DNA of 64,000 nucleotides from Aurantiacibacter odishensis (lineage in GTDB: Bacteria > Pseudomonadota > Alphaproteobacteria > Sphingomonadales > Sphingomonadaceae). How positions within the stretch are numbered: the first letter of the stretch is position 1; every line of letters starts with the position of its first letter. A program made the translations under genes and the position numbers. The stretch spans positions 248,001 to 312,000 of the forward strand of contig NZ_QYOS01000023.1 of the NCBI RefSeq assembly GCF_003605195.1. Reading direction: 5' to 3'. Shown one piece after another: positions 10,077 to 32,763 of the stretch. The notes beneath the pieces were generated by a model. That model made no database searches. It was not told the origin of the DNA and saw only the letters and a list, made by a program, of their open reading frames with translations.

Positions 10077-10104
10077 TTGTATGCAACACTTACAATTGAT
10101 AGGA
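10077..10104 (+). promoter_or_regulatory. Operator-like motif, copy A
   Basis: TTGTATGCAACACTTAC followed by AATTGATAGGA, in the divergent promoter between ligK and the ligJAB operon. Sixteen of its first 17 bases, and 24 of 28 overall, match copy B near 19.8 kb in reverse orientation; copy D near 32.7 kb is also close. The first ten bases, TTGTATGCAA, are a near palindrome (TTGYATRCAA), the shape of GntR/FCD-type operators. It may overlap the promoter itself. The bound regulator is not encoded in this window. Confidence 0.6.
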
Positions 10105-10120
10105 GGCCGCGTCGAGAGCG

Positions 10121-11002
10121 ATGTCTGCGCAAGATTCGGAAACCAAAATGCCTAAAGTGGCACTGATCGGCTTCGGCGAGGCCGGAGAAACATTTGCCCG
10201 CTCTGCGAAGTGGGAAGGCGCGAAGGGGTGGGACATCCTGCCCGAACGGCGCGTTGCCATGAGCAAGTCGGGCCTGACGCTGGGCGAGGATTGCGGGGAG
10301 GTGCTGGCCACCGCCGACGTGATCCTCTCGCTCGTGACGGCGGACCAGGCGCTGGATGCGGCGCGCGAATACGCGCCCTACCTGCCGCAGGAAGCCATGT
10401 GGCTGGACATGAATTCGGTCGCCCCGCAGACAAAGGCGATGGCGGCCGAGGCGATCGAGGCGGTCAATGTGCGCTATGTCGACGTTGCCATCATGGCGCC
10501 TGTCGACGTGGGCCTTTCCGTGCCGCTGCTGGTGGCAGGCAACAAGGCGGATGACGCGGTTGAGACGCTGACCGCATTGGGATTCACCGACGTGCGCGCC
10601 GTGGGCAGCACCGTGGGCCGGGCCAGCGCGATCAAGCTGTGCCGCTCGATCATGGTGAAAGGCGTGGAGGCGCTGACCGCCGAAATGGTGCTCGCGTCCT
10701 CGCAGGCAGGCGTGCTGGACGAAGTGCTCGCCTCCCTGGATGCCAGCGCGAAGGAACAGACCTGGGCCGAGCGTGCCGACTACAACCTCGACCGGATGCT
10801 GAAGCACGGCGGCCGGCGCGCTGCCGAAATGTACGAGGCGGCAGAAATGCTGCGCGCGATGGGCACCTCTGCCGCGATGAGCGACCAGACCGTGGCCTGG
10901 CACACGCAGCTGGGCGGGCTGGACATGACAGAGCCGCCCGAAACCCTGTCTGCCAAGCTGGATGCGATCCGGAAAACGCCGGACTTCAAGGGAGAGAGCT
11001 GA
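10121..11002 (+). CDS. NAD(P)-dependent dehydrogenase, DUF1932
   Basis: 293 residues, 6-phosphogluconate / 3-hydroxyisobutyrate dehydrogenase-like. The N-terminal Rossmann motif is ALIGFGEAGETFA, and the second half matches the DUF1932 C-terminal domain (VGRASAIKLCRSIMVKG has the family lysine in its helix). It should oxidise or reduce a small hydroxy- or oxo-acid. It is the first gene of the ligJAB operon, ending 2 bases before ligJ, so its substrate is probably an intermediate or side product of that path; which one is unknown. A second ATG nine codons in (MPKVALIG) is an alternative start. Confidence 0.8.
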   Translation: MSAQDSETKMPKVALIGFGEAGETFARSAKWEGAKGWDILPERRVAMSKSGLTLGEDCGEVLATADVILSLVTADQALDAAREYAPYLPQEAMWLDMNSVAPQTKAMAAEAIEAVNVRYVDVAIMAPVDVGLSVPLLVAGNKADDAVETLTALGFTDVRAVGSTVGRASAIKLCRSIMVKGVEALTAEMVLASSQAGVLDEVLASLDASAKEQTWAERADYNLDRMLKHGGRRAAEMYEAAEMLRAMGTSAAMSDQTVAWHTQLGGLDMTEPPETLSAKLDAIRKTPDFKGES

Positions 11003-11004
11003 AA

Positions 11005-12030
11005 ATGAGCCTGATCATCGATTGTCACGGCCACTACACCGTCCTGCCCAAAGGGCACGACGCGTGGCGGGAAGAGCAGAAGGCGGCGTACAAGAACGGT
11101 ACGCAGCCGCCGCCCTATCCGGATATTTCGGACGACGAAATCCGCCAGACGATCGAGGACAACCAGCTCAAGCTGATCAAGGAACGGGGGGCGGATTTCA
11201 CCATCTTCTCGCCCCGTGCATCGGCCATGGCCCCGCACGTGGGCGATCAGGCGGTGGCGAGCGAATGGGCGAAGCGCTGCAACGACCTGATCTACCGCGT
11301 GACGCAGCTCTTCCCCGATACCTTCATCGGCGGCTGCATGCTGCCGCAGAGCCCAAAGTCCGACATGAGCGAGAGCGTGCGCGAACTGCGCCGCTGCGTT
11401 GAGGAACTGAACTTCGTCGTCTGCAATCTCAACCCCGATCCCGGCGGCGGCTATTTCCAGCACCCGCCGCTGACGGACGAGTACTGGTTCCCGATCTACG
11501 AGGCTATGTGCGAGCTGGACGTGCCCGCGATGATCCACGTGTCGGGCAGTTGCAACCCCTCGATGCACGCGACGGGCGGCTATTACCTTGCCGCCGATAC
11601 CGTCGCCTTCATGCAGCTGCTCCAGGGCGACCTCTTCAGCCGCTTCCCGGACCTGAAGCTGATCATCCCGCACGGCGGCGGCGCGGTGCCCTATCACTGG
11701 GGCCGCTATCGTGGCCTCGCCGACATGCTGAAGCAGCCGGATATCGAGAGCCACCTGATGAACAACGTGTTCTTCGACACCTGCGTCTACCACCAGCCGG
11801 GTATAAACCTGCTGGCCGACGTGATCGAGAACAAGAACATCCTGTTCGGCAGCGAAATGGTGGGCGCAGTGCGCGGCATCGATCCGCAGACCGGCCATTA
11901 TTTCGACGATACCAAGCGGTATGTCGATGCGCTGGATATCTCCGCGGAAGAGAAACACATGATCTTTGAGGGCAATGCCCGCCGCGTCTACGGTCGCCTC
12001 AACAAGGTGCTGGCGGAGCGCGGACATTGA
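11005..12030 (+). CDS. ligJ: 4-oxalomesaconate hydratase LigJ
   Basis: 341 residues, exactly the length of SYK-6 LigJ, in the COG2159 amidohydrolase family. It adds water to 4-oxalomesaconate to give 4-carboxy-4-hydroxy-2-oxoadipate. Metal-site elements seen are D6-C-H8-G-H10 at the N-terminus, a central HVSGSCNPSMHATGG, IPHGGGAVPYHWGR, and the late FGSEMVGAVRG glutamate. GGAGAG lies ahead of the ATG. The open frame runs far upstream without a protein-like start, so this ATG two bases after the previous stop is chosen. Its stop overlaps the TTG start of the next gene. Confidence 0.95.
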   Translation: MSLIIDCHGHYTVLPKGHDAWREEQKAAYKNGTQPPPYPDISDDEIRQTIEDNQLKLIKERGADFTIFSPRASAMAPHVGDQAVASEWAKRCNDLIYRVTQLFPDTFIGGCMLPQSPKSDMSESVRELRRCVEELNFVVCNLNPDPGGGYFQHPPLTDEYWFPIYEAMCELDVPAMIHVSGSCNPSMHATGGYYLAADTVAFMQLLQGDLFSRFPDLKLIIPHGGGAVPYHWGRYRGLADMLKQPDIESHLMNNVFFDTCVYHQPGINLLADVIENKNILFGSEMVGAVRGIDPQTGHYFDDTKRYVDALDISAEEKHMIFEGNARRVYGRLNKVLAERGH

Positions 12031-12335
12031 GCGCGACCGCAACAGGCATGGTGAAGTGCGAGAAGCCGGAGCGGTATATCCAGCAACTCGTCAAGCACTG
12101 GGGCCACAAGATGGCTACCACCTACGACGAGGGCGACGGCATGGGCGTGTTCCCGTTTTCCGAACACACCAACGCCGTGATGACCGCGCACAAGGACGGC
12201 ATCGGCATCACGCTGACCACGGCCGACCGCGAGGAAAACGTGCGAATGCGCGGCGTGATCGAGGAACACATCGACCGCTTCGCCTTCCGCGAGGCGCCGC
12301 TGGAATACGAATGGGAAGACGCTGAGGAAGCCTGA
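12027..12335 (+). CDS. DUF2218 domain protein in lig operon
   Basis: 102 residues matching the DUF2218 family: an RYIQQLVKHWGHKM helix, then a strand-rich part with GDGMGVFPFSEHTN and an acidic tail. TTG is used as start because it overlaps the ligJ stop (TTGA) and has GGAG at a normal distance; an ATG seven codons later is possible. The family is often found beside iron-uptake genes and has no proven function. Here it lies directly between ligJ and ligA, whose product LigAB needs Fe(II), so a role in iron supply or repair of the dioxygenase is an attractive but unproven idea. Confidence 0.8.
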   Translation: MSATATGMVKCEKPERYIQQLVKHWGHKMATTYDEGDGMGVFPFSEHTNAVMTAHKDGIGITLTTADREENVRMRGVIEEHIDRFAFREAPLEYEWEDAEEA

Positions 12336-12336
12336 C

Positions 12337-32088: not shown

Positions 32089-32183
32089 GGACCCGATGGC
32101 GGTCAGTAAAAAACTTTCCTACAGGACGGCCAATAACGGACACCCCGCCCCAGCTCCTTGAAACCGTCAGTCGTCCCCATGAA

Positions 32184-32209
32184 AAAGCCCCGCCGCCACG
32201 CGGGGCTTT
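32184..32209 (-). terminator. Rho-independent terminator
   Basis: Stem AAAGCCCCGC / GCGGGGCTTT around a 6-base loop, with a T-run on the minus strand. It lies about 80 bases past the stop of the VOC gene and serves that minus-strand gene; it may also slow plus-strand readthrough. Confidence 0.75.
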
Positions 32210-32287
32210 CGCGTTTCCGGCGCGCCTTATGGAAATGCAGTTTCCCCGCGCCCAGTATGTAATTCATCAACTTGCATGGCCTGCAAG

Positions 32288-32689
32288 TCACTCGCCGAAG
32301 AAGTTCAGCTCCAGCAGCACGTTGTTGGGATCGGCGGTGAAAATCTGTTTCAGGCCAATCGCTTCCACAAGGTTCTCCTGGTAGTCCGCGCCGCGCGCAT
32401 CCAGCCGCGCCTTCATTTCCTCGTAGCCCGTCAGCCGCAGCGCCACGTGGTGCAGCGCGCCGGTGACATCGCCCGGCGTCACCTCGCGGTCGTAGGTGCG
32501 CTGGCAATCGAGCGAGTTGATGTGGAAAATCGCCCGCCCTGCCGCATCGAACATCCACTGCGCGGTCTGCGGCGTCAGCGGCGGCGGCGCGTCGCGGCGT
32601 TCGAGGCCCAGCAGCTCGGCATAGAAATTCGCCGTGCCGTCCAGATCATCGGTAATGATGTTCACGTGGTCCAACGCTTCGACCTGCAT
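32288..32689 (-). CDS. VOC/glyoxalase-family protein
   Basis: 133 residues with two beta-alpha-beta-beta-beta modules of the vicinal-oxygen-chelate fold: DHVNIITDDLDGTANFYAEL at the start and HHVALRLTGYEEMKARL in the middle, ending DPNNVLLELNFFG. Metal-ligand candidates are H9, the middle HH pair and the final E. These enzymes include glyoxalases, epimerases and extradiol dioxygenases; the function here is undetermined. The ATG after AGGAGGGG is used. It is divergent from ligM, with operator-like motif D between them, so it probably belongs to the demethylation regulon. Confidence 0.85.
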   Translation of the reverse strand: MQVEALDHVNIITDDLDGTANFYAELLGLERRDAPPPLTPQTAQWMFDAAGRAIFHINSLDCQRTYDREVTPGDVTGALHHVALRLTGYEEMKARLDARGADYQENLVEAIGLKQIFTADPNNVLLELNFFGE

Positions 32690-32742
32690 GATGCCCCTCC
32701 TGCCATTTTGCTGCGGATTCGCCTTGCACCTGTAGCCGAATA

Positions 32743-32763
32743 TTGTATGCACCACATACTAAT
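32743..32763 (+). promoter_or_regulatory. Operator-like motif, copy D
   Basis: TTGTATGCACCACATACTAA followed by T, between the divergent VOC and ligM genes. Seventeen of its first 21 bases match copy A, with the TTGTATGCA half identical. GCATAC recurs 4 bases further on in the opposite sense, so the site may be a pair of half-sites. It is 42 bases before the ligM start. Confidence 0.5.

Follow-up and report, generated by a model that had tools for sequence, protein, structure and literature searches.

A DNA motif that recurs in the divergent promoters of an aromatic gene block in Aurantiacibacter odishensis is, with a probability of about 0.86, an operator bound by a repressor of the MarR family that corresponds to DesR from Sphingobium sp. 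SYK-6 and to Saro_0803 from Novosphingobium aromaticivorans. On this reading, which we draw from sequence comparison, a vanillate-like compound would release the repressor and induce the whole regulon jointly. The stretch analyzed, hereafter the window, comprises 64,000 nucleotides of contig NZ_QYOS01000023.1 (positions 248,001 to 312,000), and positions are counted from its first letter. An earlier note on this stretch had described four copies of the motif and ascribed them to a single regulator. The sites, their distribution over the genome, the presence of the regulator and the absence of ligR from the same genome were computed directly.

The dyad and its genomic places

The motif is conserved as a 19-bp dyad, TTGTAWG-N5-CWTACAA, with a 7-5-7 layout. 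It was read from the columns of a scoring matrix of 127 site rows, taken from other genomes beside listed genes (one site, L122 = L359, was entered twice), and it supersedes the 10-bp palindrome TTGYATRCAA that the earlier note had taken as the unit. Operator A (10077..10095, plus strand, TTGTATG-CAACA-CTTACAA) is a full dyad in the spacer between ligK and the divergent DUF1932-ligJ-ligA-ligB-ligC genes. Operator B (19804..19822, minus strand, TTGTATG-CAACA-CTAACGA) lies between an SDR gene and a SnoaL-like gene, and operator D (32743..32761, plus strand, TTGTATG-CACCA-CATACTA), with one mismatch, between a VOC gene and ligM. Their matrix scores are 37.3 (A), 27.6 (B) and 34.8 (D), with no other place in the window above -1.3 and the best score over 60 first-order resamples of the window at 13.8.

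The fourth copy, site C (23816..23834, plus strand, CCCGCCG-CAACA-CTAACGA), has retained the right half alone (GCAACACTAACGA, 23822-23834), scores -22.7 and, as a dyad, is indistinguishable from chance. The reported positions and pairwise identities (A/B 24/28, A/D 17/21, B/C 20/23) were reproduced, as was the placement of all four sites between divergent genes, but only A, B and D stand as dyads. The idea of a single regulator retains sequence support for ligM demethylation, ligK/ligJAB ring cleavage and other aromatic genes. Site C is probably a decayed operator, more likely a relic than a random match, because relatives carry full dyads beside the MetE-like gene at six loci (two of 80 congener and four of 66 other-genera sites, see below). 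In A. odishensis it is a relic at best; weak function is nevertheless possible, since some DesR binding persists with one half site (PMC6888825; this and the other papers are cited from partial texts).

Across the 3.19-Mb genome, the dyad pattern was found at five places without mismatch and at one, site D, with a single mismatch, the base-composition expectation being ~0.05 exact and 2.2 one-mismatch matches. All six are at aromatic or one-carbon (C1) genes, a concentration that the earlier note had proposed to look for. Besides A, B and D they comprise three sites which, like the likely regulator gene, are on contigs other than the window's: C18:2724, between a MarR gene (lsdR) and a lignostilbene dioxygenase gene (lsdA); C18:15488, before an aldehyde dehydrogenase (ALDH) operon in which a benzoylformate-decarboxylase-like gene and genes for an amidohydrolase and an MFS transporter are also found; and C21:153768, at the gene for formate-tetrahydrofolate ligase (fhs/ligH). 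This target set is biochemically sensible, because LigH, the 10-formyl-tetrahydrofolate synthetase, belongs to the C1 route downstream of LigM (PMC6888825). Judged by pattern score alone, site D would not stand out genome-wide; it was accepted because of its position in the ligM promoter and its conservation. Fifteen loci with two mismatches (L030-L044), assessed by the matrix only, reached at best 14.3 (L039), compared with at least 27.6 for the six accepted places. A lax pattern allowing up to three mismatches was rejected as noise, giving 296 matches genome-wide versus 429 for the reversed pattern.

Conservation in relatives, another check named in the earlier note, was found at fhs, ligK/DUF1932, VOC/LigM and SDR/SnoaL. 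Within the genus, exact matches outside the A. odishensis genome number 92, of which 80 were read (69 away from lsdR and 11 of the 23 adjoining it). Sixteen adjoin fhs, 15 ligK and/or DUF1932 (in 14 genomes), 12 VOC/LigM, 11 lsdR/lsdA, eight the SnoaL-like gene alone, six ALDH, five SDR/SnoaL, two the MetE-like gene, two a LigB-like gene, and three none of these. The LigB-like gene that was tested, in L153, is a gallate dioxygenase gene (DesB, a published DesR target) preceded by the dyad; L138 looks alike. Some likely ligM sites escape a count by exact pattern, because the ligM site of G018 (L359:14519) carries one mismatch, ending in CTA like D.

In other genera, 66 sites were read among the sites listed, with lsdR-adjacent ones excluded and 13 of the family's regulator genomes outside the reading. 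Forty-nine lie beside listed genes; the SDR/SnoaL spacer holds 13, LigM adjoins 14, and ligK/DUF1932 none of the 66. In a different genus, two genomes have FolD genes next to the dyad (L316:1584-2594 and L326:2559-3452), so the C1 link reaches beyond fhs. TonB-dependent receptor genes adjoin the dyad in L303, L305 and L330, and it is possible, to go by these neighbours, that outer-membrane uptake of aromatics is also placed under the DesR-type regulator. Other unlisted neighbours are a pyrroloquinoline quinone (PQQ) dehydrogenase (L291) and a glutathione transferase (L327).

The candidate regulator and its kinship with DesR

The lsdR gene (contig C18, 2232-2696, minus strand) encodes a MarR-family protein (PF12802, PF01047), stands back to back with the lignostilbene dioxygenase gene and contains the dyad in its own promoter. 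Its product matches NF053777, the family of Saro_0803, at 246.9 bits (cut-off 200), and the neighbour matches NF053778 (lignostilbene dioxygenase) at 859 bits. In a genus set of 40 genomes, A. odishensis included, a regulator over the NF053777 cut-off was present in 24 and the exact dyad in 27, with the reversed control pattern in one. All 24 regulator-bearing genomes of this set carry the dyad at lsdR, at a distance of 58-134 bp from the part of the gene that was matched. Three congeners have the dyad and no regulator over the cut-off: G013, which is 84% complete and whose two sites are at ligK/DUF1932 and fhs, and G009 and G027, each with one site near no listed gene. In a family set of 298 genomes from 91 genera, the regulator was found in 42 and the dyad in 43 (both in 41, dyad only in two, regulator only in one, neither in 254; Fisher p ~1e-46, a statistic that ignores relatedness). 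In the best 80 of 163 named loci, among which N. aromaticivorans is not named, the dyad lies up to 260 bp upstream in 56 at zero mismatches and in 66 at one or fewer.

In SYK-6, DesR represses ligM, desB and desR, and the purified protein binds IR-M GTTTGTGTAACATAC (ligM), IR-B GTTTGTGTCACATAC (desB) and IR-R GTATGCTACGCTTAC (desR), the binding being reduced by vanillate and, less strongly, by syringate (PMC6888825). These three operators, absent from the training sites of the matrix, score 20.1, 21.0 and 20.5, respectively, on the matrix core, where the six A. odishensis sites score 19.4-22.9 and site C -13.4; two of 200,000 random 15-mers reached a core score of 15, one of them at 22.7. Both systems share the 15-bp core GTWTG-N5-CWTAC, and in both the MarR regulator gene adjoins a lignostilbene dioxygenase gene (PMC6888825). 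The desR gene is SLG_12870, which has its upstream space in common with SLG_12860 (PMC6888825), the gene of the dioxygenase LSD4 (PMC8191317). The targets of DesR are ligM(-metF-ligH), desB and its own gene (PMC6888825). By site position only, ligM (site D) and fhs/ligH (C21:153768) are likewise among the targets here, although the fhs/ligH site is separate, on another contig, and the SDR/SnoaL and ALDH operons are added.

The N. aromaticivorans arrangement is similar in that Saro_0803, of the NF053777 family, is encoded divergently from nov1, the gene of a stilbene-cleaving enzyme, but there control of nov1 alone is described and the ligand tested was resveratrol (PMC10046596). The Saro_0803 residues tested for resveratrol, F30, F43, F47 and W61 (PMC10046596), would correspond by an inferred 3-residue offset to F27, F40, F44 and W58 here, which are invariant in six aligned proteins; the four aromatic pocket positions appear from the alignment to be conserved. 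A DNA affinity purification sequencing (DAP-seq) table of 44 factors does not include Saro_0803, as far as the partial text of PMC12352068 goes. DesR, Saro_0803 and the A. odishensis protein most likely belong together.

In the mechanism we propose, a MarR dimer would bind one dyad per promoter and block transcription. Its release would be brought about by a methoxylated aromatic; vanillate or syringate is the likeliest ligand, and a stilbene a further possibility. Joint induction would then take in stilbene cleavage, aldehyde oxidation, O-demethylation (ligM) and C1-folate recycling (fhs/ligH), and protocatechuate 4,5-cleavage (ligKUI, DUF1932-ligJABC) would be switched on along with these upstream steps. 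The dyads, A, B and D among them, are predicted binding sites, and repression and ligand would follow by analogy with DesR. The proposal supplies a regulator and an operator for the whole lignin-aromatic regulon, and unites DesR and Saro_0803, the latter used as a part of a resveratrol biosensor, in a single family that shares one operator. It is testable and would help those who engineer the catabolism of aromatics in sphingomonads.

Several observations weigh against this proposal. First, the case for orthology to DesR and Saro_0803 is built on gene neighbourhood, the family model and the operator, and the operator reported for Saro_0803, GCAATA-N6-TATTGC, differs from the dyad (PMC10046596); its exact form was not found in the best 80 of the 163 named loci, nor was it seen by eye at the A. 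odishensis lsdR locus. Second, at eight of 77 congener target sites the adjoining SnoaL-like gene has no more than 38-41% identity, 17 of the 66 other-genera sites are beside no listed gene (one, L345, is at GMP synthase), and the site counts are partly circular, since the gene list includes genes found via the motif. Third, the reversed pattern also occurs in 17 of the 298 family genomes, so that isolated sites (in G203 and G229, for example) may be chance, and G091 has the regulator without the exact dyad. Fourth, LigM (>800 bits) is present in 39 of the 42 regulator genomes, with a match ending at a contig end in one more (G210); because it occupies nearly the same genomes, co-occurrence by itself cannot tell the regulator and the pathway apart. 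LigM exceeds 800 bits in 40 of the 298 genomes, and the sole one without the regulator (G068) is also without the dyad. Finally, ten of the 24 regulator-bearing genus genomes are without the exact ligK dyad, including G002, which has kept ligR, and G018, which has no LigR match either.

Regulation of the ligK and ligJABC operons

The LigR system of N. aromaticivorans and SYK-6 comprises the same two divergent operons, ligKUI and NAD(P)-dependent oxidoreductase-ligJABC, with the LysR activator encoded between them, and in N. aromaticivorans LigR directly activates both (PMC12710314). In A. odishensis that gene is absent and a MarR-type operator occupies the spacer, so the earlier note was right to set this layout apart from the LigR-controlled cluster of SYK-6. 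Whereas LigR owns ligKUI and ligJABC in SYK-6 (PMC6888825), the dyad here covers both.

The order ligI-ligU-ligK, LysR gene, DUF1932-ligJ-ligA-ligB is shared by the congener G002 and by plasmids from Sphingobium xenophagum and Sphingopyxis FD7, the names in this comparison being partly assigned from gene order. G002, with ligR between ligK and DUF1932, shows no dyad in the surrounding 10 kb at up to three mismatches. A. odishensis and 14 further genus genomes carry the dyad at ligK/DUF1932-ligJAB. The ligK-DUF1932 spacer measures 134 bp with operator A in the window; at 13 congener loci, where it likewise contains the dyad, it measures ~115-147 bp, too short for ligR to fit. In the A. odishensis genome, ligR was looked for between ligK and the ligJABC operon and not found, no LigR match was obtained at 1e-50 (six of 14 candidates scored), and no LysR gene exceeded 47.4 bits against LigR. 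No LigR match at 1e-50 was obtained either in G008, G016 and G034, which have the ligK dyad. At the family level, a LigR-like protein was matched at 1e-50 in 19 of the 42 genomes with the regulator, weakly in some of them.

Because LigR activates both operons in N. aromaticivorans and the dyad lies here where related clusters have ligR, the same two operons appear, to judge from gene content and order, to have changed hands from LigR to a DesR-type regulator. We lean towards the view that, in part of the Alteraurantiacibacter/Aurantiacibacter group, a DesR-type repressor captured the central ring-cleavage operons, with ligR lost, the dyad in its place and a cascade turned into one feed-forward switch. 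This view is weakened by the ten regulator-bearing genus genomes that have no exact ligK dyad and by the 66 other-genera sites, of which not one is at that position. If true, the two-step cascade, in which DesR lets LigM make protocatechuate and protocatechuate activates LigR, would have become a single switch on the upstream methoxylated substrate, a natural example of a repressor replacing an activator at the same two operons. The dyad at ligK/DUF1932-ligJAB is a new observation as far as the partial texts of the openly licensed literature searched go, in which no DesR sites at ligK/ligJ appear.

Three other explanations of the dyad were weighed. In the one that survives best, the MarR protein binds but activates or merely tunes the lig operons, which would be under an unseen main regulator. 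Some MarR proteins do activate (PMC10458429), and the promoters could not be located, because positions 9950-10200 yielded no promoter-like site in a simple sigma-70 scan. However, DesR acts as a repressor of ligM, desB and desR in SYK-6 (PMC6888825) and no LigR was found in the A. odishensis genome (at 1e-50, six of 14 candidates scored), and we regard this explanation as improbable. Less probable still is that another pathway regulator binds the dyad, for example a FerC-like MarR protein near ferBA-like genes. FerC is, from a reference title, the ferulate operon regulator in SYK-6, and a FerC-like protein occurs in 36 of the 42 regulator genomes. Yet no dyad was found at up to three mismatches in 18 kb around the FerC-like gene of A. 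odishensis, and the two distributions come apart. Thus, none of the ten genomes (of 298) with a FerC match at 1e-20 and without LsdR has the dyad, four of them matching at 124-179 bits (G079, G122, G208 and G302), and five genomes (G109, G110, G174, G220 and G258) have LsdR and the dyad without a FerC match. The least credible is a GntR/FCD operator, the class favoured by the earlier note, or a LysR-type (LigR-like) box: although the first ten bases of operator A are nearly palindromic and its TTGTA-N9-TACAA resembles the T-N11-A form of LysR boxes, the conserved columns of the 127 site rows are 7-5-7 and not a 10-bp palindrome, no LysR-substrate domain was found on the window's contig and no LigR-like protein in the genome, and the site in lsdR's own promoter together with the published DesR operators indicates MarR, which largely contradicts a GntR or LysR assignment.

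Genes around the window sites

To the left of operator A, on the minus strand, are ligK (9315..9986, NCBIfam TIGR02798), a ligU-like gene of the PrpF family (8077..9135, Pfam PF04303) and a ligI-like amidohydrolase gene (7200..8096, Pfam PF04909), the latter two named also from gene order. To its right, on the plus strand, the first gene encodes the DUF1932 NAD-binding oxidoreductase (10121..11002, Pfam PF09130/PF03446). It is followed by ligJ (11005..12024; 92% in tblastn against the gene that occupies the LigJ position in Sphingopyxis FD7), ligA (12337..12759, Pfam PF07746), ligB (12759..13667, Pfam PF02900) and a ligC-like GFO/IDH oxidoreductase gene (13758..14720, Pfam PF01408 and PF19858).

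Outside the window, contig C18 carries a second ligAB-like pair (L169:11926-13190) adjoining the FerC-like MarR gene and ferBA-like genes, named by similarity and look, and a second carotenoid/lignostilbene-oxygenase-like protein (L178:4251-5741), judged by sequence look alone. The IclR domain gave five matches in the genome.

For the remaining sites, gene starts were read from the sequence except where the open reading frame (ORF) list is named. Operator B separates the SDR oxidoreductase gene (18815..19759, minus strand, Pfam PF00106) from the SnoaL/NTF2-like gene (19846..20574, plus strand, Pfam PF13577). Downstream of C is a gene for a PQQ alcohol dehydrogenase with a cytochrome domain (23894..26038, plus strand, Pfam PF01011 and PF13442). 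On the other side, a minus-strand amidohydrolase gene (21114-22814) and the MetE-like gene (22540-23811) share 275 bases according to the ORF list, and at least one start of this pair is probably not real. Operator D is flanked by the VOC/glyoxalase-like gene (32288..32689, minus strand, Pfam PF00903) and by ligM (32806..34224, plus strand), whose product matches the vanillate/3-O-methylgallate O-demethylase model NF047885 of NCBIfam at 810 bits (cut-off 580).

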